Shown here piece after piece: positions 25,893 to 55,193 of a stretch of 64,000 nucleotides of DNA. Position 1 is the first letter of the stretch. Every line of letters starts with the position of its first letter. The DNA is from an uncultured Pedosphaera sp. Lineage in GTDB: Bacteria; Verrucomicrobiota; Verrucomicrobiia; Limisphaerales; Pedosphaeraceae. Below the pieces are notes generated by a model. That model was given only the letters and a program-made list of their open reading frames with translations. It was not told the DNA's origin and did no database searches. The DNA lies in the NCBI GenBank assembly GCA_903918755.1, contig CAIXFN010000014.1:186001-250000 (forward strand). Direction: 5' to 3'. Both the position numbers and the translations under genes were made by a program.

Positions 25893-25893
25893 T

Positions 25894-26961: not shown

Positions 26962-26972
26962 GTAATATTTCC

Positions 26973-27755: not shown

Positions 27756-27796
27756 CCGATTTGCGTTGGAATTTTCCTGTCCACGCCACCAAACCC

Positions 27797-30496: not shown

Positions 30497-30538
30497 ATCC
30501 TGTAATCCGAATTGACGTACCAAATTTGGAAAAGCCAC

Positions 30539-30643: not shown

Positions 30644-32563
30644 ATGTATTCAAAATCTATGTCACCACTGCAGCGCGCAATCAAAACGCTGGGGATCTTA
30701 AGTCTGGCCCTCGCCGCTCCCGGGTTGGTCCATGCCCAATCCGGATTCAGCCCGCAAGCGCAGGAATTTGTCCCCTTGGGAAATCTTCCTGGTGACCAAA
30801 TCCGGCCGGCTGTCGCGTTCACCAACGCCGGCGGCTGGATAGTTTGGCAGGACAATATCACGGATGGCAGCGGCTTCGGTATCAGCGCCCAGCGTCTGGA
30901 TAGTTCCCTTTCCGCCACTTTCAACCCGTTCCGGGTCAACCAGCAGGGGAGTAATGACCAGCAAAATGCCAAAATCAGCCTGCTTGGCAACGGCGGGGCT
31001 GCGATCATCTGGCAGGGGGGCGCCACGAGCTATCAGCACGTTTACGCTCGTTTCATTGCCACCAACGGAACTTTTCTGACCGGCGAATTTCAGGTCAATA
31101 CCGCCACCAACTTTCAAGTCAACCCCACGATCACCACGCTGGCGAATGGCAACTTGGTGGCTCTGTGGTCCAGCTTCAACCAGGCATCCGCCGGGAGTTT
31201 GCAGGACGTTTATGGCCAATTGCTGAGTCCCAACGGCCAAAAAATCGGTGGTGAATTCGCGGTTAACACGTTCCAGGTCAACAACCAACGGACTCCCGCT
31301 ATTGCCGCGCTACCTGCCGGTGGTTTTGTCGTCACCTGGGTTTCCGAACTGCAACGGGCAACCAACGGCGTGGACATTTTTGCCCGTGTTTTTAATGCGA
31401 ATGCCGCCCCAGTCACCAGCGAATTTTTGGTGAACAGTGGAACCAATGTTTGCGCCAACCCGGCCGTGGCCGCTTCCAAGGACGGGACCTTCATGATCAC
31501 TTGGGGGGAGAAAGATACCGCAGTGCTGAACAATGACTGGGATATTTACGCCCGTCGATTCACGGCGGGTGGGAGTGGTGGGACGACTTTCCGGGTTAAC
31601 ACGCAACGCTTTGGTCCTCAATTCCTTCCGCAAATCGCGGCCGTTCGATCTGGTTATCAAATTGTCTGGACCAGCGTGGGGCAGGACGGTTCTCGCGAAG
31701 GTGTCTACAGCCAGTTTGTCGCCGCTGACGGATCACCGCTTTCTTCGCTGTCGGGCAACGGGACGGTGCTGTGGGAACTCCCCGTGAACACCACCACCTT
31801 AAACTCCCAGATATATCCCGCTATTGCGGCGGATGGATCAGGTCGGTCAATGGTGGTCTGGTCCAGCTACACCGGGGGGTTAAACAGCATGGATCTCTAC
31901 GCTCAGCGCTATTCCTCGGCTCAACAGTCGCTTCCCGCTCCCGGGGCGCCCTTTGTCGCCGCTGTCAGTGGCGATCGCTTAACGGTGACTTGGCCAAACG
32001 TCGCGGGCTTTCAGGTGGCCAACTACGATTTATACATCGATGGCTCCGCGGTTCCTACGGTGGTGAGCAACAATTATTTTTCTGTGGCCGGCCTTGCCCC
32101 TTCCAGCACGCACAGCTTCCAGTTGGATTATGTGCTGGTGGGCGGTCAGCATTCACCCCTGTCAGCCACCACCTCCGGAACAACCTGGGCGGCGGATGTC
32201 AATGGTGATGGGCTGCCCGATGATTGGCAGGCTCTTTATTGGGGATCAAATTCTAGTCATTGGCCCTCCGCCGGGACTCTTTTGGCAGCCAAAGGGCCAA
32301 CTGCGGAAACCGTATTTCTGTGGGGAGCCAATCCCCTGTTGCCGGCCACCTGGCTCACGACAGCCATTCAGGAGACAACGCAGGGAACATTCCTTTCCTG
32401 GAATACTCAGCCGGGTGGTGTCTATCAGGTTTTAACCTCCAAAGATCTCAACAATTGGACCAATCTGGGCAGTTCACGATTCGCGGCGGGGACCAACGAC
32501 TCTGTGTTCGTCGGGCTCTCTGCGGGGGGGAATTTTTACAAGATCAATCGTATCCGGTATTAA
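30644..32563 (+). CDS. Secreted propeller-like repeat protein with fibronectin III and C-terminal FYR-type module
   Basis: 639 residues from ATG 30644; ATG 30659 is an equally possible start. The frame continues upstream across the hairpin, but with no signal peptide placed at the start. The signal peptide is IKTLGILSLALAAPGLVHAQ. Five to six repeats of the form (V)YGQ-L-x-G-x-x-x-GGEF-VNT ... P-I-x-x-LxxGxxVxxW fill residues about 35-425 and suggest a beta-propeller. A fibronectin-III-like domain (about 430-516) and an Asp-rich EF-hand/dockerin-like motif DVNGDGLPDDW follow. The last 55 residues contain a module (LSWNT, GVYQVLTSKDLNNWT, NFYKI) shared with neighbouring proteins. Probably surface-bound or secreted; ligand unknown. 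Confidence 0.78.
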   Translation: MYSKSMSPLQRAIKTLGILSLALAAPGLVHAQSGFSPQAQEFVPLGNLPGDQIRPAVAFTNAGGWIVWQDNITDGSGFGISAQRLDSSLSATFNPFRVNQQGSNDQQNAKISLLGNGGAAIIWQGGATSYQHVYARFIATNGTFLTGEFQVNTATNFQVNPTITTLANGNLVALWSSFNQASAGSLQDVYGQLLSPNGQKIGGEFAVNTFQVNNQRTPAIAALPAGGFVVTWVSELQRATNGVDIFARVFNANAAPVTSEFLVNSGTNVCANPAVAASKDGTFMITWGEKDTAVLNNDWDIYARRFTAGGSGGTTFRVNTQRFGPQFLPQIAAVRSGYQIVWTSVGQDGSREGVYSQFVAADGSPLSSLSGNGTVLWELPVNTTTLNSQIYPAIAADGSGRSMVVWSSYTGGLNSMDLYAQRYSSAQQSLPAPGAPFVAAVSGDRLTVTWPNVAGFQVANYDLYIDGSAVPTVVSNNYFSVAGLAPSSTHSFQLDYVLVGGQHSPLSATTSGTTWAADVNGDGLPDDWQALYWGSNSSHWPSAGTLLAAKGPTAETVFLWGANPLLPATWLTTAIQETTQGTFLSWNTQPGGVYQVLTSKDLNNWTNLGSSRFAAGTNDSVFVGLSAGGNFYKINRIRY

Positions 32564-32569
32564 GCGTTT

Positions 32570-34948
32570 ATGTTCCTAACAATTAAGAGATCGAGCCTGG
32601 CCCTGATACTGGTGCTATTGGTATTGGGAAGCCCCGCCGTCTATGGTTTTTCGCTGCTCGGGCCTCATGCGATTCCCAACGGAGCAGACGCCTTCCAACA
32701 GCCGGTCATTGGCTACAACCTTACTCCCGCCAACAACGATCGCGCTGATGTCGGCGATCCCAAGAACCTGAATGAGGATTACCGCTGGAATGCCGGGGAT
32801 ATATATTACGCCTTTGACAGTTCCTTCATCACCTATTTTGGCACCAACGGGATGGCCGAGGTGGACAAGGCGTTTGCCATTTATAATTCTCTGAAGAATG
32901 TTTCCGCCTACAGCAGTGATCTAAGTGAGTGGCCCACGTTGACCACCTTCGTTAACTACCGCGCCAATGCGGCGGGTTTGATCGATATTAAGTCGGTCGT
33001 CATGGAATTCATTATCGAGCAGTTGGGTCTTGCTCAGCCGGAGCGTTATACCTATGCCCTGCACGAACGCGTCCTGCCTCCCAATGCCAAATGTCCCGCC
33101 TACAACTATGCGGTCATTCAGCGGAATTACGACCCCGTGAGCCAGGTTTACAGCAGTTTCGTCAACGGCACGCTTTACGGTTATAGCATTTTTGAAACTT
33201 GCGGTTTCGCTGTCAACCCGTTGCCGGGCGTGGGGGCGGAGACGGCCATCTACGCTGTCGATGCTGACTCCTACAATATTTATAATACCGTAGCCGCTGG
33301 CGATATTTCCACGGGCGGAATCTATACCTTCGGCACGAGTGTGGGATCCGGTGGGACATCATTTGGTCAGTATTACACCGGTTTGACCCGGGATGATGTG
33401 GGCGGGTTGCGCTATTTGCTTTCGTCCAACCGGGTGCACATGGAAGCTGTGGATGGCACCAGCTTGCTGGTCAGCACCAACACCTCCGGTGGCCAGCAAC
33501 TTTTGACGACCCGTGATTATGGTCTTTTCGCTGCGCAAGCGTTGACCAACAATGCAGCCGCCCTTCAGGCTTTATATCCTGGCTTGGTCATCCTCAATTC
33601 GCGTTCCTATTTCGCCTTGCAGGTCACCACCAATTTCATTGCCAGTCTCACCAACCTGCCATTTTCCCCGGTTGGCAGCGTTCCCAATGTTCTTTTGACG
33701 CCCTTCTACACCACCAATATTACGACTTATTACCAACACACTTTCGGCAATATTGTCATCAATCCCACTTTGGCGCATCCCGAAGGCGAAGGTGCGTTCA
33801 CGAACGGTTACAAGACAATTTTGACCACGAGTTCAATCAACTATCAATGGAAGCCGGTCAATTCCACAAATTTGATCGCAACCAATACGACTGCGGTAAA
33901 TGCCACGACCGCTTTGGTTACCAACTTCCCCAATGGTGAGTTTTACATATTTCCCCAGGCGGAATGCGGACCTTACGTCCTGACGAGTCAATTCTATACC
34001 TTTATTACGGCAACTACCAATACGACCGGCACGGTAACCATCGCCCCGGGCAGCACCGGTTTGGTCGCGTCCGCTGTGAGCACCGTGACTTACGTGACGA
34101 ATCATGACTTCATCTACTATGCCGTTCAATGTGACACCGCGCCCGTTACTCTTCGGGCGGGCATTGAGAAGGTGAATTTTCACCGTCAGGATTATGATTC
34201 ACTGATTGGGACCAGTTGGACGCCGGTTACCAACTACCACACGATCGTCAGCATTACCAATTCAACGCGCACAGCTGATCGCTTTCAACGGATTTTGAAT
34301 CAGCCTGATTTCGTCTTCTTCGCTCAGGATCTCATTGTTCCTGGAGTCGGGGCTCCGGTTGTTCCTTCCGTCCTGCGGACCACTCCGCGTTATAACTTTA
34401 CGGTGGCTAATACCACCGGGTTGGCTGGACCAGGAACGATTGGGCCGCCGAATCTTGCCAGCGGACCCCTTTCCCTTACCTTCAATAAGGGAGTGCCCGC
34501 CACGCTAAACTCATACCAAGGCACTATTTTGGATGAAGGAACCGCATTTTCTACCTATTTGTGGGGTTCTTACGACGGAACGACCAACGCTCCCGTCGTG
34601 TATCCGAGCACCGCCAGCCTGAACAATTACGAGAATTCGTTGTTCCTGCAAATTACGACCCCCATGGTGCTTCCCACCGGCCATCAAGGGAAGGCTTACA
34701 CAGCGCAGATTCAAGCGACGGGTCAATCGCCGGCTCCCTACACTTGGTCTTTCGTCGGGGTGGGATTGCCGCCGGGACTGACTAAATCCGCACCGATTAC
34801 CGTGGTCAATACCCCCACGAGCACCACCTCTACTATAACCATTTCAGGGACGCCTACCACGACCGGAATTTTTGACTACGTTGTCCAAGTTTCGGATAGC
34901 ACCGGCCGGGCATCGCAGTTGAATTTTGTGATCGAGATCGACCTTTAA
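32570..34948 (+). CDS. Secreted protein of unknown function with C-terminal Ig-like (putative Ig/cadherin-type) domain
   Basis: 792 residues, starting 6 bases after the preceding gene. A signal peptide (LALILVLLVLGSPAVYG) is clear. The N-terminal 300 residues have no family I recognise; a repeated pattern begins with NEDYRWNAGDIYYAFDSSFITYFGTNG and may be a peptidase-like or binding domain, but no HExxH was seen. The middle is Thr/Asn-rich beta sequence. The final about 95 residues resemble the He_PIG type Ig-like domain (LPTGHQGKAYTAQIQATG, LPPGLTKSA, ITISGTPTTTGIFDYVVQVSDSTGR). Unlike its neighbours it lacks the FYR-type ending. Context suggests an envelope or secreted function. Confidence 0.75.
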   Translation: MFLTIKRSSLALILVLLVLGSPAVYGFSLLGPHAIPNGADAFQQPVIGYNLTPANNDRADVGDPKNLNEDYRWNAGDIYYAFDSSFITYFGTNGMAEVDKAFAIYNSLKNVSAYSSDLSEWPTLTTFVNYRANAAGLIDIKSVVMEFIIEQLGLAQPERYTYALHERVLPPNAKCPAYNYAVIQRNYDPVSQVYSSFVNGTLYGYSIFETCGFAVNPLPGVGAETAIYAVDADSYNIYNTVAAGDISTGGIYTFGTSVGSGGTSFGQYYTGLTRDDVGGLRYLLSSNRVHMEAVDGTSLLVSTNTSGGQQLLTTRDYGLFAAQALTNNAAALQALYPGLVILNSRSYFALQVTTNFIASLTNLPFSPVGSVPNVLLTPFYTTNITTYYQHTFGNIVINPTLAHPEGEGAFTNGYKTILTTSSINYQWKPVNSTNLIATNTTAVNATTALVTNFPNGEFYIFPQAECGPYVLTSQFYTFITATTNTTGTVTIAPGSTGLVASAVSTVTYVTNHDFIYYAVQCDTAPVTLRAGIEKVNFHRQDYDSLIGTSWTPVTNYHTIVSITNSTRTADRFQRILNQPDFVFFAQDLIVPGVGAPVVPSVLRTTPRYNFTVANTTGLAGPGTIGPPNLASGPLSLTFNKGVPATLNSYQGTILDEGTAFSTYLWGSYDGTTNAPVVYPSTASLNNYENSLFLQITTPMVLPTGHQGKAYTAQIQATGQSPAPYTWSFVGVGLPPGLTKSAPITVVNTPTSTTSTITISGTPTTTGIFDYVVQVSDSTGRASQLNFVIEIDL

Positions 34949-34951
34949 GTT

Positions 34952-37900
34952 ATGAAGCGATTGTTTTCCACCTGTCTTTTGGTGTTTTTGGCGCTGACCC
35001 GGTCGGCTTCATCACAACCCAGTCTCGGTTATACCAATTTGGGGAATGTGCTGGCTCCCCTGAACATTGACGCCTACAATTTTGTCAATGCCGGGACGGT
35101 CGATCTCACCGGTTACGGACTGCTGTTTTCGTTTAGCGACACTACCAATTTTGTCAACCGGGGGACAATGACCAGTGACATCGGTTTTGTCTTTGATACT
35201 GAACCCACCAGCGGGAGTGCCGGTGTTCATGCCGCTGCCTCCTTTAACAACGCCAGCACCGGGACAATCAAGGGATCCTCTCCGGTGCTCAAAGCCACTG
35301 GTGTCGTGGGGCTGAGTTTGCAAGGTCCGCAAGTGCGGGTGACGGCTAACGCAATAACCAATGCGGGCGACATCCACGTGGGGATTGGTGGGTTAATACG
35401 CCTGGCGGGTAATAACCTCAACTTGAAGAACGGCACCTTGGAGGTGGACGGCGTGAGTGCTTCCTCAAGTGCGACCAATATTATCTTCACCGGAATCAGT
35501 GGACTGTTGACCTCCATTCCGGGTTTGTTTCCGGGGGTTTATCCCTCGGGAGTTTACGATACCTATTGGGGTGTCGGGACCGACACAAATACGCAAATCT
35601 CCTTCCAGTATCCCCTGTTTGCAACCAGCGGGGTCTATGACCAGACAAACTCGGGTTCCAGTTTCGCGCTGCTGCAAAGCCAGTTGTCGCTCAACAATTT
35701 GACAGCTTACGGCTATACGGCCGCGATCAATGGGGACACCAGCAATCTGGTCACCCAGATCGTGGTGCTTGGTGACAACAACCTGGATGGCAATATCTCC
35801 ATGTCCGCGCGTTTCGAAGCTGGTTTCCTTGGCAGTAAGCCCAGCGAATTCCCTATTCCGGTGGTGCAGTGGCTTTCGGTTGTCAAAAATTTGCCTGGGC
35901 TCCCTCCGGTCACCAACACGCTTTATCTGACCGATGATTTCGGCGTCCGGACAAACGGTTTTAATATCGTCAAGACCAATTCATCGTCGTTAAGCGGCCA
36001 AATCGGCTACTCCCCCACCAACTACACATTTAGCCGGGTATTTTCAGGCTTTACCAATCTCTCCACCGGCAATTTTCCTGGTGTTGCCAGCATCCTCACC
36101 AACGGGTTGGTTGCGGGCACCACGAATGATTATACTGCGTATGGCGTAACTCTCTTGGCGACCACCGCATCCCCGGATCCGACACACCCCCTGCAAAACA
36201 TTACGAATACGCCGGGGCGGATCGAGATTGTTGGGGCCAACGCCGATTTGACCAAGGTGCGCATCACCGGACCCAATTATTTGAGTTTGACGATCACGAA
36301 CCATTTTACCAATGGAGGAAACGCTCAAATCTCCGCGCCGACCGAGGATCTAAATCTCGCCACGACGAACGGCATCCTTCTAGTGACGAATCTGGTGGCC
36401 CCTTATCTCCCGCAATTTAGTGGCACGATCGATATGTATAGCACCCGTTGGACGAACATCTTTGCCGGAAGTTCGAACGCAAATGGGACCATCACTCCCG
36501 GATTTACGAACCGTTACCACATGCTCATGCTGCAAAGTCAACTGTCCTCGTTGTCCGTTGCCGCCGTGCAGAACTTTGCCTTGCGCACCACGAATACCGC
36601 CTCGGCCGGCGCCAGTCCAGGCAGCGCCTACAATGGCACGGTATATATCAGCGATTTGCTTAATATCACCAGCAACCTGCAGGTCGTGGCGGACCAGGTA
36701 ATTATCACCACGAATCGGGCTGGTTCGGCCACACCCGAGGGGCAGATTAATCTGAGCAGCGATTTCAATTGGTCCGGGAATTTTCCGACTTTGAAGTCCC
36801 TGAGCAATTACGGACAAATCACGTTGCCTGGATTTGGGCAGTTCTTTCAGGATCGGATGCCCCCATATTATGCGTCCGCGAGCACTGTTGGTTACGCCAG
36901 CTTGGCGAATTACGGAGTGCTTAGTTCGGGTGGCGTAAGCATTTGGGCTACCAATTTTGTGAATGCTGGCACGAATGCTCCCGGCACTTTGGTCACTTTG
37001 ATTAACACTAATTTCTTTTTCCTCACTAACAGCATTCTGTTTAATTTCAACACCTTCTCTTATTCAATTGGACAGGGTTTGATTTCGGCTTCTGCCGGTC
37101 CTGTCATTCTGAGCACCGACAATGGACTGCTCATGAACGGGGAAATTGCCGCACCGATGAGCGATGTCAGCATCACCGCTGGAAATCTCACCATGAGCAA
37201 TCACGGCATTTTGGCGGGTGGGGCGTTGAATCTGGCAATTACCACCAACAATTATACTGTCGACGGAAGTGGTCGCTTTCTGACGAACACCTGGCAGGTT
37301 GGAAACGGTTTCACGATGACCACCAAACCGGTCAGCGGTGACTTCCTCGGCACCACCTTGACCAGCATTCTTCCTCCCCGCGTGGAGGCCGTCAGCACTT
37401 GGGCCGGGATTAATTACGGCGACAGCCCGGCTGGTTTTACCAACAACGGCGCTCTGGGACATTTGATTCTGGATGGGGGTGATATCGACAGCACTTTCAC
37501 CTTTACTGCTGCAAATGGCACCAATAATGCCCTTTATGTGGATTTGCTTGAATTGCGTAATTACGCCACCAACCGGTTGAACCCGGATCTCACCGAGTTG
37601 AATATCGATCCCAATTTCACCATATATTTTGCGGATGCCCGTATCCTTAATAACGATGGTACCACAGCCGACATCTCTGAAAAACTCAATCATGCCAACG
37701 GTGAACGCTTGCGCTGGGTGCCCGGCTTCGCTGGGTTGTTCAGCGGAACAAACGTCACCTATCCTTCGGGCGTTACCTACACCCTCAATCGCCCGTTGGT
37801 TCAGAGCACCGCCCTCGATTCCAATGGCAATGGTATTCCCAATGCTTACGATCCGGCGCCGGTTTTCGTGAGCAGTCAGTTGGTGGTAGGCATGCGTTTG

Positions 37901-38113
37901 ACCAACAAGCCGACTGCCGGATCGGTGGTGCTCTCCTGGCCGACGATTGCGGGCGGTACGAATCATGTTGATTTGTTGACCAATTTTTCGAACGGCAATT
38001 GGTCGAGTGTCACCAACTTTGTATCACCCACTGGTGGTAACGTTTCTGTGACGTTGCCTTCGGCGGGCAAAGCTGGATTCTATCGGGTGCGGATTGATCC
38101 GCAACAACCGTAA
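34952..38113 (+). CDS. Large secreted adhesin-like protein, probable beta-helix
   Basis: 1053 residues, 3 bases after the previous stop. The signal peptide is RLFSTCLLVFLALTRSASSQ. The sequence is rich in Asn, Thr, Gly and Ser, with loose repeats such as NFVNAGTVDLTG, NFVNRGTMTS, NNASTGTIKG and NAITNAGDIHV, which fit right-handed beta-helix rungs of the filamentous haemagglutinin kind. There is no autotransporter barrel. The C-terminal about 65 residues (AGSVVLSWPTIAGG ... NWSSVTNF ... AGFYRVRIDP) form the module shared with the neighbouring proteins. Probably an adhesin or matrix protein; the exact ligand cannot be inferred. Confidence 0.78.
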   Translation: MKRLFSTCLLVFLALTRSASSQPSLGYTNLGNVLAPLNIDAYNFVNAGTVDLTGYGLLFSFSDTTNFVNRGTMTSDIGFVFDTEPTSGSAGVHAAASFNNASTGTIKGSSPVLKATGVVGLSLQGPQVRVTANAITNAGDIHVGIGGLIRLAGNNLNLKNGTLEVDGVSASSSATNIIFTGISGLLTSIPGLFPGVYPSGVYDTYWGVGTDTNTQISFQYPLFATSGVYDQTNSGSSFALLQSQLSLNNLTAYGYTAAINGDTSNLVTQIVVLGDNNLDGNISMSARFEAGFLGSKPSEFPIPVVQWLSVVKNLPGLPPVTNTLYLTDDFGVRTNGFNIVKTNSSSLSGQIGYSPTNYTFSRVFSGFTNLSTGNFPGVASILTNGLVAGTTNDYTAYGVTLLATTASPDPTHPLQNITNTPGRIEIVGANADLTKVRITGPNYLSLTITNHFTNGGNAQISAPTEDLNLATTNGILLVTNLVAPYLPQFSGTIDMYSTRWTNIFAGSSNANGTITPGFTNRYHMLMLQSQLSSLSVAAVQNFALRTTNTASAGASPGSAYNGTVYISDLLNITSNLQVVADQVIITTNRAGSATPEGQINLSSDFNWSGNFPTLKSLSNYGQITLPGFGQFFQDRMPPYYASASTVGYASLANYGVLSSGGVSIWATNFVNAGTNAPGTLVTLINTNFFFLTNSILFNFNTFSYSIGQGLISASAGPVILSTDNGLLMNGEIAAPMSDVSITAGNLTMSNHGILAGGALNLAITTNNYTVDGSGRFLTNTWQVGNGFTMTTKPVSGDFLGTTLTSILPPRVEAVSTWAGINYGDSPAGFTNNGALGHLILDGGDIDSTFTFTAANGTNNALYVDLLELRNYATNRLNPDLTELNIDPNFTIYFADARILNNDGTTADISEKLNHANGERLRWVPGFAGLFSGTNVTYPSGVTYTLNRPLVQSTALDSNGNGIPNAYDPAPVFVSSQLVVGMRLTNKPTAGSVVLSWPTIAGGTNHVDLLTNFSNGNWSSVTNFVSPTGGNVSVTLPSAGKAGFYRVRIDPQQP

Positions 38114-38205
38114 TTAATGCATTTGGCAGAAGAGTGATTTTGCGAACGTCAAAAGTGATGCGCAGAGTCCGAGTTGACGAGGAAAATTTTAGTCCGGAAG
38201 GTATT

Positions 38206-47200: not shown

Positions 47201-47910
47201 CCACCAATGTGTTCATTACCGCCAGCGCCCCGGCGTCGGTTGGGAGTATCACCAATTTTGCCTCGGTAGCTGGCAATGAAAGCGATCCGAACCTGGATAA
47301 CAACGTTGCCTCGTCCGTCAGCGCCGTGATTCCCGCCAATGCGGATCTTGCGATTGGCTTGGTAGGTGCGCCGGATCCTGTCTTCGCTGGGGGCACCTTG
47401 GTCTATACGATGAGTGTGACAAATCTCGGTCCGGCCAGCGCCACGAATGCCATTATCACCGACGTTCTGCCTGCCGGAATGGCCTTTGTTTCCACTTCTG
47501 CGGGCGGTTCCTATACGACCAATTCCAACACGATTACGTTTAATCTGGGTGGCTTGGGCAGCGGCACGGTTGTTAAGCCAACGATCACGGTGCGCCCAAC
47601 CAGTTTTGGCATTGTGACGAACACGGTTAGTATCACCTCCGGTGTTCCCGATCCGTTCAAAGGTAATAATCGTGCTTCGGTAAAGACAATCGTCCAGGCG
47701 GTTGAGATCGCGAGCGGGAGCAGTGCTGGATCCGTGGTGTTCACTTGGCCCGCCTCCGTGTCTGGGTACGTCATTGAGTTCACGCCCACCTTGCTCGCCC
47801 CGGTGGTTTGGACCACCGTAACCAACCCGCTTCCCGTGATTGTGAATGGCCAGTACAAATTCACGCCCAACCTGCCGGGGTACTACCGGTTGCGCGCTCC
47901 GTTGCCCTGA
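38206..47910 (+). CDS. Giant secreted Calx-beta / delta-60 repeat protein
   Basis: 3234 residues from ATG 38206, preceded by GGAAGG 5 bases upstream; the open frame begins 24 codons earlier, before the signal peptide (ILRWVLGLVLGTVAINGWA). Order: a pre-peptidase C-terminal-like beta domain (about 39-169), a Thr/Asn-rich region and one Calx-beta-like unit, seven delta-60 repeats (about 649-1009), four Calx-beta units (about 1042-1569), seven more delta-60 repeats (about 1589-1945), six Calx-beta units (about 1952-2635), an Ig-like segment plus P-domain-like module (about 2642-2913), two DUF11 repeats (about 2919-3162) and a final 60-residue FYR-type module. Calx-beta units bind calcium; the whole is a likely adhesin or matrix fibre. 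No enzyme domain was seen. Confidence 0.88.
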   Translation: MYRTYENSPKMPGARTAILRWVLGLVLGTVAINGWAAPANDNFGQAAIYDPTVRQVSGKTVNNVGATKEIGEPNHAGNAGGASVWWSWVAPISGPVEFDTQGSTFDTLLAVYTGTDVTSLAPLSANDDVNFPADKTSKITFIATAGTTYMIAVDGYGGATGSIFLNWSPIGALAGGNFLFAAGQSTADGIPLYQISEYENSSASIADPNNSPAMGSALTRLVVKRASGSAGYLHATVLITNSTYTNLVWTNQYGTNIYTTNIDNTTPTPTITYTNAFTTNQVDVLWQQYYYPGFGYQYLHITNGTIFTNTFTAGTWQYPPPLIPPGLVVGTNIGAPPIPCAYVLGKPVTNATAVTVGATTVTNYLITVTESYCTNILTDVVVPSAIAGLDYTPAVFDVNFYDYQQSAEITGIGIRPSFLKPPRLVLALITNVSLDSAEISDIVPPTIDPVGGAAFINVVSLSGRPLDPNNDPEGPGGTTNSIVNFVATNHRYSEGNSARNLASVGVVWLGSQPGGSVSYTINSLDIIGFSIDTFALQAGSDFATPSVGLQRPSGQSVDVTNIQGTITYKPFPNPQYIEIPVPVDNLVEFNEDFQVNLYNANGCLIGQNPTATVTILDRNLPAGTADLTFNVDASPLTDPPYNAHPGPNGEVHAVAVQSDDKILLAGDFNAFNTKPRGHIARVLAATGQIDEGFMAFPNSGSDGIINALALQGDGKILIGGQFTSFNGSNLFSIGRLTSSGGVDGSFNPGLGVQTIGGVPGNVLAMALQPDGKILVVGDFNRVGGTNRINIARFNADGSVDSTFDSGVGPNGIINCLALQRDNRIVVAGQFTTFDNVSRAYIARLMPDGSLDNSFDPGTGANDAIYAIAVQPDTRIVVGGAFTSLELNNFPHIGRLNSDGSLDTTFLPGAGLDANVYAITLESSGKIFLAGNFESYNSTRRMGLARLLTDGKLDTSFLDTAYNEFAGLLRHYNSEDVEPRGALYSVGLQSTGDVIIGGNFSKLGGSPGAYSGKETSGHLVIVARQNFARLIGGGTPGPGNIGFANSSYSADKAGATSFITLVRTNGSLGQASVSINTTAPASGNGAAVQGVDYTLLPKYQNPTWISSGPTYGGGITWMDSDAVFGPNNTVISDITQQIYQSAAAQVFITLLNPPGQSGNRSLDLAVNLPAIPNFVDLGGEPMPTGVALGLTYAPLTIVDNTTPHGVLGFSSALYTVDQNGTNAVITVVRTNGSSGVVQINYATANGVDNLPFTVGARAGSTNDYLATSGKLTFGDGITNQTFRIPLINNGIVKPDATIQVYLFNVTGGGVPGLTNTIVKVINDNLVYGKINFTATNYTVRETETAAVITATRTGGSAGTVQVTYSASSGAGATAGVDFTAVTNTLLWNSGDVAPKTFTVPVFHDNQVLTNLKTVNLKLYGAIVNTAPQKNALGTVTNATLSIRNDDQFGHPTFSVANYYVNENAGFANITVLRQGGSAQTIAVDYFTSDFTAKVSNNDYQPVHGTLTFGPGVFSQNFTVPITEHAQAGDAPAGIYSFLVNLTNPVPASGPGGGVTLGSVSTAVVNIIDNYTYNQPPGGNDPVFNPNAYFNGTVYSLVLQPDGKILAGGDFTVANAYVRNHIARLNQDGSLDVKFSSETEGTDGVVRSILRQSDGGIVIAGGFQQVSSVNRSKISRLNLDGSLDTTFNPGSGFDNTVYSLAETFSGTGTNATRKLVVGGAFTLANGFVLHGIAQLNNNGTIDQGFVATGANAPVYGVAVYSTNDFNSGKIIIVGDFTMVNGTARNHIARLNADGTLDTTFDPGVGPDQPLRAVAIQVDGKLLIGGLFTSIGGVPASHLARLNSDGSIDASFAAQPGTSDSVLTLALQEDLKIIVGGAFTSANGVTRGRITRLNPDGTVDGTINFGSGANDFVSSVVIQSDEKMILGGGFTTYDGVSHPYIARIYGLTEQDAGAVTFTTAGFSAIESTTNGVITVRRTGGTTGAVQVDVATSDGTAIAGQDYVAVSKTLTFPSGETFESFNVPLLDTLKVGPNLTINLTLSNPRGGNSFNNLVLGVQPTAVLTILNDNSTVSFSSPNYRIVKNNAQGSANIYLERSGSTIGQATVDFATTTTGTAIPGIDFTPVASTVVFSPGQTEVVVTVPVINNGLVEGNTTVGLAIMNASNTVPSVPSTSLLTIVDNNLSPGNLSFAGTNYIVYENPATNSNATNAVAAIKILRTGGTLGQVSVQIGVSGGTALPGVDYIATNQTLAFADGQTENTFYVTIPHNPRVTGNQYVNIGLSNPTGGALILGPSSEQLIIVDQDVGFGFVQPSYFVSETAGSLSVSVQRLGRTNGTYSVTYATMDGTALAGTAYGPLSNILTFASGETLKTFTLPIYHNTNVTGNQSFTINLSNPSPLTQLGAVSTALVTVLDVDTGLAFATNQVSVVKSAGQIAIGVVRTGSPAGSVGIAYSTSDGSATAGVKYTSTTGVLTFLDGQTSNYFTVPILNDNAVDGDQTFNVTLSNPSNGAQLLAPSVTTVTIVDITSGFNFANSVFSVNENGVSALITVLRNGVTNTAVSVNYATTDGSARAGVDYVATSGVLQFLPGQTSRTFPITIIDRGLIGGTVTALISLSNPSTNGILLATNIATLNINDNDGSLIVPAGVSLITESGPTNGVIDPGETVTVLFALRDGAGNSTSNLVATLLSTNGVTAPSAPQTYGALQAFGPSVSRPFTFTANGTNGGNITAVFSLQDGTNNLGSSRLVFFTFALGANTNTFSNNSTIVINDLAPASPYPATINVAGLNGLVSKVTVTVSNLSHGYLSDVDMLLVGPAGQKQLLMTHIGGGHGATNLTLTFDDSAANSLTTSTPTNGTYKPTQFGIVPFPAPAPVQPYALNLATFNGTNPNGAWSLYVLDDNALDVGGITNGWSLKIQTVSPVPGSSDLVLGSVSTPVQVVATSNLVFTLNVTNAGPSPATGVVLSNTLPAGAAFVSSVPANQAVYNSGGTVTVVFNLGNLGTNGTTNVFITASAPASVGSITNFASVAGNESDPNLDNNVASSVSAVIPANADLAIGLVGAPDPVFAGGTLVYTMSVTNLGPASATNAIITDVLPAGMAFVSTSAGGSYTTNSNTITFNLGGLGSGTVVKPTITVRPTSFGIVTNTVSITSGVPDPFKGNNRASVKTIVQAVEIASGSSAGSVVFTWPASVSGYVIEFTPTLLAPVVWTTVTNPLPVIVNGQYKFTPNLPGYYRLRAPLP
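46129..46944 (+). repeat. Composite module (Ig-like + P-domain), copy in the giant protein
   Basis: Encodes ESGPTNGVIDPGETVTV ... LVATLLSTNGVTAPSA ... LQDGTNNLGSS, then SPYPATINVAGLNGLVSKV, LTFDD, NGTYKPTQFG and WSLYVLDDN. The same order of motifs appears twice in the M36 peptidase gene (52182-52997 and 53771-54584), so the module was copied between or within these adjacent genes. Confidence 0.85.
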
Positions 47911-48017
47911 TAGCCCAGCAATTCCGTTAGGGGACAGGTCGGTGGTCGGGTGGGATGAGAGTCCGGAGTAGTTGCAGTTTATTAATTAACGGCAGAAGAG
48001 TTTGGTTTGTAGCTAAA

Positions 48018-51000
48018 ATGAAAAAGCGTATTTTTGGATTGGGGCCGGTCACGCGTGGTTTCACCAGCCTCGTCCTTGTTTTGGCGGTCTTCACGACGAC
48101 CGCCTTGGCTCAGGTAGCCCCCAAACGGGCCACGCTGCCCAATTTTGACAGCCGCCTTACCAAGTCACCGGGCCCGGCCGAATTAGCCGGTGATGCTCGC
48201 TCCGCTCTTTTGGCGCTGCAATCCACCATCCCGGGTGTGCAGGTGGAAGTTGATCCACTCACCAAAACGCCCAAATTTATTCATTCCACGCAGGGTTTTC
48301 TGACCGGACCAAACGGTCAGGCTTTGAACTTCTTGCCCGGGGCGATCGGTCAAACCTCCGGGGGTAATGACGCGTATCAAGCGATCCGCGGATTTTTAAA
48401 CGATCATCAAGGATTATTCGGCTTTACCGCGGAGATTTTGACAAATGCCACCACCAAACGTGACTCGGTTGGAGCCCACAATGGTTTGCGGACGGTTGTC
48501 TGGCAACAACAGTTGGATGGAATTCCGGTCTATTCCGCGATCCTGATCGGAAATGTCACCAAAAACGGTCAAATTGTCTCACTTGCTAGTCAGTTTATAG
48601 CGAATGCCGCCACCAAGGCCGACGCCGGCAACCTCAATCGCGCAGCGATTCTTTTCCAGCCGCCCGTTGACACCATCGGTGCGGTGAAAGCCGCCTTTCA
48701 GAACTTGGGAGACGTTTCGGTCGGTGATGAGGCCATTCTCACGGGCAATGTCCAGGGTGAAGGTTACGAAGTCGTTCAGCTGGCCGGGGCAGGGGTCGCT
48801 TACGCGCGGAAGGTTTGGGTGCCGATGAGCAGTGAAGCACTTCGCCTTGGTTGGGAAGTGGTTTTGACCAGCCCGAAATACCACGAAATGTTTTTGGAGG
48901 TGATTGACGCGGAAAATGGCAGCCTGATTCGCCGTCAATCGCTTACAGAGTATGTCAGTGACGCGACCTATCGCGTCTTCACCAGTCATAGTCCCGCCCC
49001 TTATTCGCCGGGTACGCCAACTCCGACTGCGTTTCAGGCCCCCTTGGTTGCCCGGGATTTGATTACGACCAATGCCTACTCTCTGGTGGCTTCTCCCAAC
49101 GGATGGATCAACGACGGCGTCAACGAAACCCTGGGAAACAACACCGATGCGCGCCTCGACCGCAATGGCGATGGTCAGCCTGATGGTCCCCGTCCGCAAG
49201 GCAATCCCAACCGGGTTTTTGATTTTGCGCAAGATCTGACGCTTGCACCCATCAATTACACCAACGCTTCCATTACTCAGTTGTTTTACTGGTGTAACGT
49301 CTATCACGACGTCCTTTACAGCCTCGGTTTCACCGAAGCGGCCGGCAACTTTCAGACCGATAATTTTGGTCGCGGGGGCCTTGGTGGTGACGCGGTGCAG
49401 GCGAACTGCCAGGCCGGCGCGGATGTCGGTCAGGCTGACAATTCCAATTTCTTTACCCCGCCAGATGGTCTTCCCGGGGTCATGAACATGTTTGATTTCA
49501 GCGGACCCAACCCCCGTCGTGATGGCTCATTGGATGCGGATGTGATCTTGCATGAGCACACCCACGGTTTGAGCAACCGGTTGGTGGGTGGCGGAACCGG
49601 TATTTCGGCCTTGCAGACGCGCGGCATGGGTGAAGGTTGGTCTGATTTCATGGCCGCCTGCTTGTTGAGCAAGCCGGGTGAAGACCCTGACGCCACCTAT
49701 CAAGGTGGGCCTTACGTTAGCTACCTTATCGGGGGCTCGGGGTTCACAGCCAATTATTATTACGGCATCCGCCGCTATCCCAATTCCACGGATTTGGGCA
49801 AGAGCCCGCTCACTTTCAAAGATTTGGATCCGGCGCAAGCAAGTCCCCACACCGGAGTTCCGCTCAGTCCTCTTTTCTCGCCTTTTGACCCGACCTCCGC
49901 GAATGAATTTCATAATGCTGGTGAGGTTTGGTGCGAAACCCTCTGGGAAGCGCGGGCAAATCTGGTTCATAAATTGGGTGGCGCAGCCGGCAACCAAACC
50001 ATCATGCAATTGGTGGTCGACGGCATGAAACTGGGTCCGTCGGATCCCACTTTCCTCGATGCGCGGGATGCCATTATTTTGGCGGACCAAGTGGACAATG
50101 CGGGAGCGAATTTTACCGAACTATGGAAAGCCTTCGCGAAACGCGGAATGGGTTTTAACGCGGTGTCGCCGAACAGTTCCTCAACCACCGGGATTATTGA
50201 AAATTATGAACTCCCGGGATTGATCGTGTTGAGCACGACATTGTCGGGTGGAAATGGCAACGGCATTATTGACAATAACGAATGCAACAACCTGCAAATC
50301 ATCCTGCGCAATTCCGGAGCCGCACCCGCCACCGATGTTTCTGGTCGTCTGACCTCCCTCACACCGGGAGCGGTGGTTTCGCAACCAGTTTCCACCTATC
50401 CCAACATGGCGAGTGGTGGCCGCGCAGTTAATTCCGTGCCGTTTAAACTGAGCACAACTCCGGATTTTGTATGCGGGACACCCATCAATTTTGCCTTCGT
50501 AGTCAAATCCGACCAGGATACGCGCACAAATTTCTTCCAACTGACCTCTGGTACAGCCGGTTCACCCATCCGGTATGATAACCCCAATTCCTACTCGATT
50601 CCGGATGGGAATCCGGCTGGTGTTAGTTCTCCGGTGACTGTTTCTGGATTTAGCGGCGGGGTCGGCAAAATCAGCGTGGCCTTGAATATCAATCATACTT
50701 ATGATGCTGACTTGACCCTTGAATTAATCGCGCCAGATGGCACGAGTGTCATCCTTTCCAGCCAAAATGGCGGTTCGGGCAATAACTATGGCACTGGCTG
50801 TCAGGATACGTCGCGAACGATTTTTGATGACGCCTCGCAAGTCGCGATTTCCTCCGCCAAGCCTCCCTTTGTCGGAACTTTTGCCCCGGATCATCCGCTC
50901 GCGGTCTATAATGGCAAATCGGGCGCCACGGTAAATGGTGTCTGGCAGTTGCACATCGTCGATGGGTTTCAAGGTGATGTCGGCACTTTGAATTGCTGGA

Positions 51001-54000
51001 CGCTCCTATTGTCTCCCGCCCTCTGCACGGACGGCGGTGGAACCTGTGCGGGCGTTGACCTTTCGCTTGGTATGACTGGCGAGCCGAGCCCGATCACCTT
51101 GGGGGCCAGCGTTACCTACCATATCGCGATCACCAATAACGGTCCGCAAGTTGCCAAAGGCGTGACCATGAACCAGACTTTGCCTCCCGGTGCCATCTTC
51201 GTATCCGCCAGCAGTTCTCAGGGTAGCATTGCCCCTTCGAGTGGGGGGATCACTGCGAGTTTCGGTACGCTGAATCCGGGCGATAGCGTGCAAATTGTCG
51301 AGGTGATTACTCCGACCAGCACCGGAACAGCTTTTTCCACTGCGACCGTTGGCGGTAGCGTAACGGAAAATGATCCCTCCAATAATTCCGCCACCGTGGG
51401 TGTGGTGGTGAATCCGACCTTTACGGATTTGGCCATTGGATTATCGGCCTCGCCCAATCCCGCCCCGAATGGTTCTCCGATCATTTATTCGGTGTCAGTC
51501 ACCAATTTTGGTCCGTATCGGGCGACGGCGGTTTATGTCACCAACACGCTGCCGGCGGGAGTCATTCTGAATTCGATAAATCCCTCTCAGGGGACGTTTA
51601 CGTTGGCGGGCAATTCTGTGGTGTGCAATCTCGGCGGTCTGGCATCTGGTGCCTCCGCTCTGGTCGCAATTTCCGTCACGCCGACGAATTTGGGGAATAT
51701 TACCGCGAGTGCCACCGTGGCAAACTTGGCGCAAATCGACCCGATTCCAGGGAATAACAGCGCCTCGTTGCTGGTCATCGTCAATCCGGCGGCCGATCTT
51801 GGGGTGGTCATGACGGGTTCCCCCAGTTCCGTCATCGTGCGCAGCAATCTGAGTTACGCCATTCTGGTCAACAATCGCGGGCCCAACGCGGCTGCCGGGG
51901 TGACTCTTACCGATCCGTTGCCGGCTGGTGTCCGACTGCTCTCCGTGACGAGTTCGCAAGGGACGATTGTCACCAACGCAAATTCCCTGACATTTAATTT
52001 GGGAGCTCTGTCTTCCGGAGGCAGCGCCACGGCCGCCATTGTTGTGGCGGCGACCAATATTAATGTTTTGACCAATGTAGTGACCGTATCCTCCAGTCAG
52101 GGCGATCCCAATCTCGGGGACAACACGGCTGCGGTGATCACTCAAGTGGCCAACCGGTTTACGAATATCGTTGCCGCAGGATCCTCGCTCGTCGCCGAAA
52201 GCACCCTGCCGCCGAACGGGGCCATTGATTTGGGTGAGACTGTTACGGTCGGCTTGCGCCTGCAGAATATCGGAAATGTTCCGAATGGTAATCTCGTGGC
52301 CACTTTGCTGCCCACGGGTGGGGTGACGGCCCCGAGTGCCGCCCAGAGCTTTGGCGTGCTGAATCCCGGCGGATTGGCCAAGACCAAGAATTTCAGTTTT
52401 ACCGCCAGCGGGGTGAGCGGTGGAATTTTGACCGCAACGCTGCAACTGCAGGATGGCACCAATAATTTGGGCACGGTTCAGTATGCTTTTCCGCTGCCTA
52501 CGGTTTCCCAATTCGCGAACACCACGGATATCATCATCCCCGATCACGGACCGGCGACGCCCTATCCCTCCTCCATTACCGTATCGGGAATCACGGGTCT
52601 GGTGGGCCACGTTGCGGTTACGCTGACCAACTTGAATCATTCGTACCCGAGTGATGTTGACATTCTTTTGGTTAGTCCCGGTGGCCAGAATATCCTGCTC
52701 GCTTCGCATGCGGGGGATGGCAATTATCCGCTGACCAATGTCTCCCTCACATTTGACGACGCGGCGACATTGTCACTGCCCGCCGCCAATCAGATTTTTT
52801 CGGGAACTTATAAGCCCACTCAGTACGGGGCGGCGACCCTCCCGCCGAGTGCTCCGGCGAGTCCGTATGATACGGTGCTGTCCACCCTGAACGGCGGCAA
52901 TGCGAATGGCAAATGGTCGCTCTATGTTGTGGATGAATCTCCGGGTGATTCCGGTAGCATTCTTGGCGGATGGAGTCTGGCTATTACCGCAATTCAACCC
53001 TTGAATCAGGTAGCCGATCTGGCTTTGAGCGCTTCAGCGACACCCAATCCGGTATTGGTGGCCAGTAATCTCACCACGACTTTTGTGATCAGCAACCGGG
53101 GACCGAACACAGCGACTGGTTTGGCGTTCAGCAACACCCTGCCGTCCGGGGTAAGCTTCATCTCCGGTAGTTCCGCCCAGGGGAATGTCCTGAACAACGG
53201 TGGGTCGCTGTATTGCATCTTCACCAACAGCCTCGCCGCGGGGTCCGCCGCCACGGTGACGGTGATTGCTTCGCCCACCGTAGCGGGCAGTTTGACCAAC
53301 ATCGCCAGCATTGGCGGCAATGAGATTGATCTCAACCTGACCAACAATTTGGTAAATCTTGTCACTATCGCCACTCCCGCGAGTGCCGATCTTTCCGTTA
53401 GCATCCTGACTACCAACTCCGTGGTCGTGAGCAGCAACCTCACCTACGTCGTGACCGCCACCAACAGTGGTCCGAATAGCGCCCTGGCGGTTGTGATCAC
53501 AAACCAATTGCCCGCCAGTCTTACGAACGTGCAATTTAGCGCCAACGGGGGCGTGGTCACGAATTATGGCAATCTGGTGGTTTGGAATCTCGGGTCTTTG
53601 GTGCCCGGGGGCAGTGCCTTTATCACAGTCCAGGGCAATCCCGCGGACTTGGGACTGATTACCAATAGCGTTTCGATTGGCTCTTCGGCGAGTGATCCAG
53701 TGCCCGGAAATAACCTGGCTTCCGCGATTACCACTGTGATTCTCGCCTCCCCCACAATTGCCGCCAGCGGTGTGGAATTGTTGGCGGAAAGCGCCCCGGC
53801 AAATGGGGTGGTTGATCTTGGTGAAACCGTGACCGTTGGTCTTAAATTGGCCAACATCGGTTCGGCGGATACCGGCAACTTGACAGCTACTCTGCTGCCA
53901 ACGGGTGGTGTTTCTCCGGTGACCACCTCACAAAATTATGGTTCATTGGTTCGTGGTGGCGCCGCGGAGGAAGCTCCGTTTACCTTCACCGCGACCAGTC

Positions 54001-55193
54001 AAACCGATGGCATCGTCACCGCGACACTACAGCTTGCTGATGGCGGCACAAATCTCGGAACGGTTTCTTTTGTCTTCAACCTGCCCCGGACAAATCAATT
54101 TGCTAATCCCGGCGGAATTCTGATCCCGGATAGCGGTCCTGCCGCGCCTTATCCCTCGACCATCGTGGTTTCTGGCGCCACCGGGTTGGTGAGTCACGTC
54201 AGTGTGACCCTGTCCGGCGTCAGTCACTTGTTCCCGGATGACATCAATGCCCTTTTGGTGGGGCCTGATGGTCGCTCGGCACTCTTGATGTCCGGTTCCG
54301 GCGGCGGGCACAGCATCAGCAATCTCACCCTTACATTTGACGATTTTGCTTCCGCGACTCTGCCGAGTGCGACGCAAATTCTCTCCGGCACGTATCAACC
54401 TTCGGATAATGCTCCCACCCGGAACCTGGCTTATCCTGCCCCGTCTCGGCCTTATGGCGCCCTATTGACCGGGTTTAACGGAATTAGTCCCAATGGCAAT
54501 TGGCAATTGTTTGTCTTTGATAGCGCGGCCGGGGACGCTGGATATATTGCTGGAGGCTGGAGTTTGAATTTGACCACGGTTAATACCCTTAACCCGGTCG
54601 CGGATCTCGGGGTGACCATGACGGTGGCGCCTGCGGTCAATTTGTATGCGGGTATCACCACCTTTGCTTATGTGGTCACCGCCACCAATGCCGGACCGGC
54701 CAACGCGACCGGCGTGACCATCAGCGACCGGCTACCGGTGGGCCTGAATTTGATTTCGGCTGTCGCCTCCCAAGGCACGGTTTCCAATATCGAGGGGGTC
54801 ATCACTGCCAATCTCGGAAATATTTACGCGCAGAGCAATGCCACCTTTACGATCACCGTTACAGCGGCCAATCCCGGCACGTTTGTCAATTCCGCTTCTA
54901 TTGCCGGTACCTCCACGGATTTGAATCCCAGTAACAACCTGTCCCAGAAATCAGCGATCGTGAATGGATTCACTCCTTTCGATTTGACGGCGGGTGTGCT
55001 GGATGCAAATGGGGCATTTTCCCTCACGCTGACCGGCGGCATCGGGCAAACTTATGTGATTCAAGGCTCCAGCGATTTGATCACATGGACACCCTTGACC
55101 ACCGTCACTCTGACTTCCGCCAGTTACCGCTTCCTGGACACTAGTTCCACCGGCCTCAGCCAGCGATTCTACCGCGCCGTCTTTAATCCATGA
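48018..55193 (+). CDS. Giant secreted M36 (fungalysin-type) metallopeptidase with P-domains and DUF11 repeats
   Basis: 2391 residues from ATG 48018, chosen for the basic start MKKR and signal peptide (LVLVLAVFTTTALAQ). The FTP-like propeptide covers about 35-305. The M36 catalytic domain (about 315-733) carries H512-E513-H-T-H516 in DVILHEHTHGLSNRL and the third zinc ligand E539 in GMGEGWSD. A first proprotein-convertase P-domain (about 852-1001) follows, then DUF11 x3, composite module 1 (P-domain), DUF11 x2, composite module 2, DUF11 x1, and a C-terminal FYR-type module. M36 enzymes degrade extracellular proteins such as elastin or collagen; P and DUF11 domains may attach it to the surface. 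It is far longer than typical members. Confidence 0.92.
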   Translation: MKKRIFGLGPVTRGFTSLVLVLAVFTTTALAQVAPKRATLPNFDSRLTKSPGPAELAGDARSALLALQSTIPGVQVEVDPLTKTPKFIHSTQGFLTGPNGQALNFLPGAIGQTSGGNDAYQAIRGFLNDHQGLFGFTAEILTNATTKRDSVGAHNGLRTVVWQQQLDGIPVYSAILIGNVTKNGQIVSLASQFIANAATKADAGNLNRAAILFQPPVDTIGAVKAAFQNLGDVSVGDEAILTGNVQGEGYEVVQLAGAGVAYARKVWVPMSSEALRLGWEVVLTSPKYHEMFLEVIDAENGSLIRRQSLTEYVSDATYRVFTSHSPAPYSPGTPTPTAFQAPLVARDLITTNAYSLVASPNGWINDGVNETLGNNTDARLDRNGDGQPDGPRPQGNPNRVFDFAQDLTLAPINYTNASITQLFYWCNVYHDVLYSLGFTEAAGNFQTDNFGRGGLGGDAVQANCQAGADVGQADNSNFFTPPDGLPGVMNMFDFSGPNPRRDGSLDADVILHEHTHGLSNRLVGGGTGISALQTRGMGEGWSDFMAACLLSKPGEDPDATYQGGPYVSYLIGGSGFTANYYYGIRRYPNSTDLGKSPLTFKDLDPAQASPHTGVPLSPLFSPFDPTSANEFHNAGEVWCETLWEARANLVHKLGGAAGNQTIMQLVVDGMKLGPSDPTFLDARDAIILADQVDNAGANFTELWKAFAKRGMGFNAVSPNSSSTTGIIENYELPGLIVLSTTLSGGNGNGIIDNNECNNLQIILRNSGAAPATDVSGRLTSLTPGAVVSQPVSTYPNMASGGRAVNSVPFKLSTTPDFVCGTPINFAFVVKSDQDTRTNFFQLTSGTAGSPIRYDNPNSYSIPDGNPAGVSSPVTVSGFSGGVGKISVALNINHTYDADLTLELIAPDGTSVILSSQNGGSGNNYGTGCQDTSRTIFDDASQVAISSAKPPFVGTFAPDHPLAVYNGKSGATVNGVWQLHIVDGFQGDVGTLNCWTLLLSPALCTDGGGTCAGVDLSLGMTGEPSPITLGASVTYHIAITNNGPQVAKGVTMNQTLPPGAIFVSASSSQGSIAPSSGGITASFGTLNPGDSVQIVEVITPTSTGTAFSTATVGGSVTENDPSNNSATVGVVVNPTFTDLAIGLSASPNPAPNGSPIIYSVSVTNFGPYRATAVYVTNTLPAGVILNSINPSQGTFTLAGNSVVCNLGGLASGASALVAISVTPTNLGNITASATVANLAQIDPIPGNNSASLLVIVNPAADLGVVMTGSPSSVIVRSNLSYAILVNNRGPNAAAGVTLTDPLPAGVRLLSVTSSQGTIVTNANSLTFNLGALSSGGSATAAIVVAATNINVLTNVVTVSSSQGDPNLGDNTAAVITQVANRFTNIVAAGSSLVAESTLPPNGAIDLGETVTVGLRLQNIGNVPNGNLVATLLPTGGVTAPSAAQSFGVLNPGGLAKTKNFSFTASGVSGGILTATLQLQDGTNNLGTVQYAFPLPTVSQFANTTDIIIPDHGPATPYPSSITVSGITGLVGHVAVTLTNLNHSYPSDVDILLVSPGGQNILLASHAGDGNYPLTNVSLTFDDAATLSLPAANQIFSGTYKPTQYGAATLPPSAPASPYDTVLSTLNGGNANGKWSLYVVDESPGDSGSILGGWSLAITAIQPLNQVADLALSASATPNPVLVASNLTTTFVISNRGPNTATGLAFSNTLPSGVSFISGSSAQGNVLNNGGSLYCIFTNSLAAGSAATVTVIASPTVAGSLTNIASIGGNEIDLNLTNNLVNLVTIATPASADLSVSILTTNSVVVSSNLTYVVTATNSGPNSALAVVITNQLPASLTNVQFSANGGVVTNYGNLVVWNLGSLVPGGSAFITVQGNPADLGLITNSVSIGSSASDPVPGNNLASAITTVILASPTIAASGVELLAESAPANGVVDLGETVTVGLKLANIGSADTGNLTATLLPTGGVSPVTTSQNYGSLVRGGAAEEAPFTFTATSQTDGIVTATLQLADGGTNLGTVSFVFNLPRTNQFANPGGILIPDSGPAAPYPSTIVVSGATGLVSHVSVTLSGVSHLFPDDINALLVGPDGRSALLMSGSGGGHSISNLTLTFDDFASATLPSATQILSGTYQPSDNAPTRNLAYPAPSRPYGALLTGFNGISPNGNWQLFVFDSAAGDAGYIAGGWSLNLTTVNTLNPVADLGVTMTVAPAVNLYAGITTFAYVVTATNAGPANATGVTISDRLPVGLNLISAVASQGTVSNIEGVITANLGNIYAQSNATFTITVTAANPGTFVNSASIAGTSTDLNPSNNLSQKSAIVNGFTPFDLTAGVLDANGAFSLTLTGGIGQTYVIQGSSDLITWTPLTTVTLTSASYRFLDTSSTGLSQRFYRAVFNP
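52182..52997 (+). repeat. Composite module (Ig-like + P-domain), copy 1 in the M36 gene
   Basis: Encodes LVAESTLPPNGAIDLGETVTV, NLVATLLPTGGVTAPSA, LQLQDGTNNLG, TPYPSSITVSGITGLVGHV, LTFDDAATLSLP, SGTYKPTQYG and WSLYVVDESPGDSG. Homologous to 46129-46944 and 53771-54584. Confidence 0.85.
53771..54584 (+). repeat. Composite module (Ig-like + P-domain), copy 2 in the M36 gene
   Basis: Encodes LLAESAPANGVVDLGETVTV, NLTATLLPTGGVSPVT, LQLADGGTNLG, APYPSTIVVSGATGLVSHV, LTFDDFASATLP, SGTYQPSDN and WQLFVFDSAAGDAG. More diverged than copy 1. Confidence 0.85.

Follow-up and report, generated by a model that had tools for sequence, protein, structure and literature searches.

A C-terminal beta-domain of exported Verrucomicrobiota proteins as a candidate sorting or surface-retention signal

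Why do four neighbouring genes for exported proteins of quite different build close with the same short stretch, and could this stretch be an address? To our knowledge, the ways in which Verrucomicrobiota move large proteins across the outer membrane are poorly understood. The locus lies in a stretch of 64,000 nucleotides from an uncultured Pedosphaera sp. (the window). An initial annotation, made from the window sequence alone, described a common C-terminal module in the products of genes ending at positions 32563, 38113, 47910 and 55193, and read it as a sorting or anchoring signal.

The host genes and the gene of the 792-aa protein among them lie on the plus strand. The exported product of host 1 (30644-32563) has an FN3-like stretch and a TSP3-like one ahead of the tail. 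Its 683-aa open reading frame (ORF) starts with TTG at 30512; the alternative start at 30644, which gives 639 aa, is the likelier one because of the signal peptide. It is followed by a 792-aa exported protein without tail (32570-34948), by host 2, a 1053-aa exported protein with signal peptide (34952-38113), by host 3, a 3258-aa protein with Calx-beta, DUF5122/delta-60 repeats, P-domain and DUF11 (38134-47910), and by host 4, a 2412-aa M36 (fungalysin) metallopeptidase with DUF11 repeats and P-domains (47955-55193). The gaps between these five successive genes measure 6, 3, 20 and 44 bases, and a CoaE gene overlaps the host 4 gene by four bases. Directly upstream of host 1 on the same strand (23970-30496) lie genes for an Amuc_1101-like PilM, an Amuc_1100-like protein, a 260-aa product and an Amuc_1098-like secretin, together a candidate export apparatus. 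Also upstream of the hosts, an XrtA-like exosortase (TIGR03109, E 1.7e-39) is encoded at 19562-20536 and an exopolysaccharide glycosyltransferase (TIGR03025) at 21388-22779.

Elsewhere in the order, 29 loci were compared, and in 21 of them a homologue of host 1 adjoins the secretin; among the remaining eight, some of the fetched stretches end too early for this to be judged. Three host 1 orthologues whose frames are closed by a stop (loci L385, L388 and L399) all lack the tail. Because of this adjacency and of the three closed, tail-less homologues, host 1 is taken to belong with the secretin within the order, and the tail does not strictly do so. The related locus L248 has the order host 1, a short gene like that of the 792-aa protein, host 2 and M36 peptidase, with tails on all but the second; this 516-aa counterpart (L248:2286-3833) holds the same place and has neither an Ig-like end nor a tail. 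One and the same orthologue may thus carry a tail or lack it, as would suit an address label added on to the protein, and also an optional binding module.

Pairwise likeness of the window tails is by itself weak evidence for a common module, since the other three share only 13-29% identity with the first. A hidden Markov model (HMM) was therefore trained on 78 tails of the same genome, all from outside the window. It recovers the tail of the 2412-aa peptidase (54975-55190; E 5.6e-17), of the 1053-aa protein (37883-38110; E 8.9e-17), of the 3258-aa protein (47692-47907; E 7.2e-10) and of the 639/683-aa protein (32348-32560; E 9.2e-10). Beyond these four, none of the 487 window ORFs (at least 60 aa, six frames) reaches an E below 0.5, and the best reversed window ORF scores 0.73. 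The shared ends are thus where the initial annotation had placed them, and its remark that the 792-residue protein lacks the module agrees with the absence of any match of that protein to the HMM. The module is about 57-70 residues long. Its conservation was read from an alignment of 82 of 86 listed tails of the genome, among them that of host 1, with that of the M36 peptidase as first row; four weak or short ones were omitted (L083, L074, L062 and the fragment L095). In the numbering of the 72-residue query, Trp38 is kept in 79 tails, Arg67 in 78, Leu35 in 73, Tyr66 in 67, Phe65 in 66 and Tyr27 in 60. The motif line first proposed is about right, with Leu35, Trp38 and the final Phe65, Tyr66 and Arg67 conserved over the 82 tails.

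The module is far from confined to the window. In the genome of 7.19 Mb, a profile of the four window tails has matches at 90 places (E up to 1), and a profile of the 82 tails at 150 or more (the best 150 of 360 candidates). These places were fetched, translated in six frames and searched again without positional assumption, giving 154 domains in 151 stop-terminated ORFs, a count that leaves out ORFs without stop and duplicates sharing the last 150 residues. Of the 154 copies, 148 (a lower bound) finish 1-9 residues ahead of the stop, most often three, four or five (62, 39 and 27 copies). Another two (L193, L209) also stand at the C-terminus, in alignments cut short, and L066, L206, L203 and L032 each contain one of the remaining four copies, which are internal. 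Those in L066 and L206 are followed by sequence resembling FN3 strand G. The copy in L032 stands near residue 502 of a 626-aa ORF and precedes a glycine run; it may be a fusion or an exception.

The last residue before the stop is also restricted. Among the 148 terminal copies, 82 have Pro there, 26 have Gln and 13 have Asn (121 together); a small aliphatic residue almost never stands last. Pro closes 82/148 tails as compared to 32/410 control ORFs, a rough comparison in that the controls include spurious frames. Judged by the sequences, a free and restricted C-terminus is part of the module's pattern, and the end itself appears to be selected.

The proteins that bear the module look exported. 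Of 142 full host ORFs, 126 have a signal-peptide-like start; the same loci supplied 56 control ORFs, of which 25 have one. The rule is home-made and generous (in a stop-to-stop ORF, any Met up to residue 170 is considered), and, as the controls indicate, many frames pass it. Most of the 16 failing hosts show by eye a signal-peptide-like stretch after a GTG or TTG start or in an upstream extension, and two of them (L181, L202) resemble fragments. Cytoplasmic hosts, which would have spoken against a sorting signal, did not turn up: on reading these 16, no clear case was seen. Host ORFs have a median length of 889.5 aa; the shortest, of 65 aa, is a fragment where its stretch ends, the longest has 5885 aa, and short hosts of 158-174 aa also bear the tail. 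The longest tail-bearing ORFs listed are L163 (5885 residues) and L207 (5716 residues). A domain scan of 146 segments upstream of tails, each up to 335 residues, returned immunoglobulin, He_PIG, laminin-G, LRR, NHL, DUF11, TSP3 and other extracellular domains, from hosts unrelated to one another. NCBIfam models in the same segments included choice-of-anchor GloVer (5), choice-of-anchor Q (4), rhombosortase-dependent M36 peptidase (4) and myxosortase-dependent M36 peptidase (3).

Across the phylum, the module was detected in 89 of 194 genomes at E 0.001 and in 61 of 107 genera, per-genome counts being taken from the best 30 candidates at most; whole families and genera are without it. At the best-match loci of 29 other genomes of the phylum, 26 copies are terminal, at most 12 residues from the stop. 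Frequent internal positions, which would argue against a sorting signal, are thus seen neither there nor among the 154 copies of the own genome. The three internal ones (L211, L223, L234) may be fusions or exceptions to the terminal rule. Among the ten genomes behind named loci, three verrucomicrobial ones hold at least 150 tails each and one of Verrucomicrobiaceae 51; no tails were found in the three planctomycetes, two acidobacteria and one burkholderialean. In a sample of 79 planctomycete genomes two matched weakly, and these matches are internal FN3 domains with a following strand. Since these are internal and the sampled genomes of the other phyla are tail-less, the terminal form seems, on sequence grounds and as far as sampled, to be confined to Verrucomicrobiota.

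Host 4 offers a comparison within one enzyme family. Its best NCBIfam models are those of myxosortase-, T9SS- and rhombosortase-dependent M36 relatives, with scores below their cut-offs. We compared 80 M36 loci from named genomes, 38 of them verrucomicrobial (the phylum being unstated for two, L259 and L262) and 42 from other bacteria. Among the 38, 24 M36 ORFs are closed, and 14 of these end in the module. Five others (L252, L255, L258, L270, L272) end in an apparently longer variant, L256 and L277 look frameshifted, and L264, L269 and L278 are closed without the module. This longer variant contains a DG-E-V-VR segment, closes with residues such as RKFVRVKLVNP and takes the module's place in M36 peptidases of Verrucomicrobiaceae and Chthoniobacter type. 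None of the 42 other loci (planctomycetal, acidobacterial, proteobacterial and others) carries the module, and some (L288, L304, L312) end in a hydrophobic stretch with basic residues. On M36 peptidases the module thus occupies the place of the known sorting tails of other lineages. The argument used for GlyGly-CTERM is of this kind, namely that the sorting tails on a single enzyme family differ from lineage to lineage (PMC3237569).

What kind of domain is it? AlphaFold2 on the 82-tail alignment predicts with confidence (pLDDT 94.9) an all-beta fold whose sixth and last strand spans residues 65-71 of 72. A model of the last 200 residues of host 1, made from two sequences, reached pLDDT 50 and is not used as evidence. 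Foldseek against the PDB gave a best E of 0.26 and nothing below 0.001. A second structure aligner ranked FN3 and Ig chains first, with a best Z of 7.9 and all values below 8, the level at which they would be trusted alone. The top matches are the C-terminal domain of Nir2 and the FN3 domains of Pel3/PelI (Z 7.5-7.9, rmsd 2.2-2.4), and many FN3 chains follow at Z 6-7.2. In isolated FN3 chains of 84-97 residues, the alignment covers about residues 4-76 and the chain runs on for 10-20 residues past the end of the predicted module, so that strand G has no counterpart in the model. The confident model thus describes an FN3-like six-stranded sandwich without strand G. By sequence, the nearest PDB chains are glucanase/chitosanase modules (E 6.9e-6); far weaker are the FN3 matches, led by an Fn3-like protein (E 0.015). 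The tail is described by none of the Pfam or NCBIfam families; among the 82 members, Pfam FN3 matches none at E 0.1, and Pfam F5/8 type C matches four weakly. We found no description of the module in the literature searched, which covered few subscription papers, and we do not claim its absence from print.

The initial annotation had also suggested looking for a co-occurring secretion system. The own genome has 13 GspD-type secretin matches, the best at 2.1e-87 and below the curated cut-off. GspD lies above this cut-off in 52 of the 194 genomes and is strong (E 1e-80 or better) in 153. Set against the tails, 85 genomes have both, 68 GspD only, four tails only and 37 neither (Fisher p 5e-8, phylogeny ignored); within the window's class the numbers are 26, 10, three and 27. 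In one family (f3), 17 genomes have weak secretin matches only, 16 of them without tail and one with a single tail, and the only genome with a strong GspD has at least 30. The exosortase (E 1e-34 or better) is associated with tails more strongly than GspD is: 81 genomes have both, 37 exosortase only, eight tails only and 68 neither (p 2e-16, again ignoring phylogeny). Both associations may reflect phylogeny and lifestyle. As the exosortase exceeds GspD and the p values ignore phylogeny, we claim no exporter from co-occurrence, and the GspD secretin was not accepted on this ground. One genome (G108) has four tail matches, of which two or more are terminal, with 4 and 11 residues left before the stop, together with only a weak secretin match; this argues against a need for GspD.

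Almost all of the genomes (186/194) contain the Amuc_1098 family. In tail-bearing genomes outside the order, 20 stretches around matches to this family (19 of 15-20 kb, L351 of 3.7 kb; secretin marked in 17) contained no tail gene, so the Amuc_1098 system could not be upheld there as exporter by neighbourhood. In two tail-rich genomes of one genus, a tail-less protein of about 3150 residues directly follows the secretin (L367:4151-13627, L368:6411-15836). Co-occurrence as such is present for secretin and exosortase, it is specific for neither, and no system was singled out. A secretin-based exporter of T2SS or T4P type is the leading candidate, unproven, for the putative export of tails.

Taken together, we consider it somewhat more probable than not that the module serves in Verrucomicrobiota as a C-terminal domain for sorting or surface retention, of neither T9SS nor sortase type. 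This is the best reading because the module is terminal, its hosts look exported, it stands in place of known sorting tails on M36 peptidases and choice-of-anchor domains occur in several of its hosts; the first interpretation is in part supported by this. The hosts would leave the cytoplasm by their predicted N-terminal signal peptide. Model and sequence suggest that the last 57-70 residues would then fold into a small FN3-like sandwich stopping at strand F, with the edge strand (FYR) and the free C-terminus, usually Pro, Gln or Asn, exposed. A receptor in or on the outer membrane might recognise edge and end, possibly donating the missing strand, and might route the protein out or hold it on the surface. 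Cleavage of sortase, exosortase or rhombosortase type is not expected, because a transmembrane helix and a basic cluster are absent. A more specific proposal, which we offer only tentatively and with clearly less confidence, is that Verrucomicrobiota possess their own outer-membrane export or display pathway with at least 150 substrates in some genomes; its signal would be the strand-G-less FN3-like domain, and its receptor would donate a strand as in pilus assembly and read the Pro/Gln/Asn C-terminus. Points against sorting are that no machine is singled out, that host 1 has tail-less orthologues, that the 792-aa neighbour is exported without a tail and that the FN3 matches stay below Z 8.

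The module might instead bind a ligand and anchor proteins on the surface by exopolysaccharide, peptidoglycan or another glycan, with no exporter reading it. The glucanase/chitosanase modules rank ahead of the weaker FN3 chains among PDB sequences, F5/8 type C shows its few weak matches, and tails go with the exosortase, one of which lies in the window alongside a polysaccharide glycosyltransferase. Yet binding modules are seldom restricted to the last residues before a stop and need neither a fixed distance to it nor a Pro/Gln/Asn end, and the module has about half the length of a discoidin domain; we regard this explanation as unlikely. It is less likely still that the module is a C-terminal cap without targeting function, which would aid folding and shield large beta-rich proteins from tail-specific proteases. 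Prc/Tsp-like proteases give reason to avoid small aliphatic C-terminal residues, which would suit the ends observed, and most hosts are long; however, the conservation of Trp38 and Arg67 over 82 divergent tails goes beyond the needs of a cap, hosts of only 158-174 aa bear the tail, and whole families and genera do without it. Very improbable, finally, is that ordinary FN3 domains, spread by duplication, stand last by chance: the fold is FN3-like and some internal matches are plain FN3 with the following strand, but random placement would not put 148/154 ends within nine residues of the stop, lose strand G or converge on Pro, Gln or Asn, and Pfam FN3 finds no member.

If the module is indeed a sorting or retention domain, the 148 or more tailed proteins of a single genome would be recognised as a secretome in one step, and many giant "hypothetical" proteins would gain a common address. 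Because some genomes bear tails and others do not, phylogenetic profiling could then be used to look for the exporter, as was possible with exosortase and rhombosortase.

Among known systems, the closest in kind are the C-terminal domains (CTDs) of the type IX secretion system (T9SS), described as small Ig-like beta domains that close numerous unrelated proteins exported by Sec, with many copies per phylum (PMC10202324). Like the type A CTD, the module is terminal and its hosts have Sec-type signal-peptide-like starts. The T9SS CTDs (type A PF18962/TIGR04183; type B PF13585/TIGR04131) belong to Bacteroidota, the module to Verrucomicrobiota; they have seven strands versus six in the predicted model, and motif-E lysines where the module ends with a conserved FYR and a terminal Pro. 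PF18962 gave no match in the own genome at E 0.001 (the control, Bacteroides ihuae, matched below the cut-off) and is absent from the matches of the 82 tails, and membership in the type A CTDs was rejected on this basis. The SprA/Sov translocon profile matched none of the 194 genomes and likewise none of the control genomes, and no T9SS CTD is among the PDB fold matches listed, which excludes nothing. The Pel3/PelI FN3 domain is among the nearest folds (4u49, 4u4b, 3b8y; Z 7.5-7.8, rmsd 2.2, 68 residues aligned), and export of Pel3 by the T2SS is described as needing loop regions, one of them within its Fn3 domain (PMC7949064). This domain is N-terminal, seven-stranded, restricted to one enzyme family and only 7-13% identical to the module. 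The F5/8 type C (discoidin, CBM32) domain, at about 140 residues, is about twice as long as the 57-70 residues of the module. MYXO-CTERM, GlyGly-CTERM, PEP-CTERM and LPXTG tails are terminal, common to unrelated exported proteins and swapped between lineages on homologous enzymes (PMC3237569, PMC11980579). They consist of a motif, a transmembrane helix and a basic cluster, whereas the module is a predicted folded beta domain without helix; with an all-beta model and last residues of Pro, Gln or Asn in place of a basic cluster, a sortase-like tripartite tail was rejected. The module is thus alike in kind to the T9SS CTDs, differs from them in profile, end motif and phylum, and stands apart from the tripartite tails by its lack of a helix.
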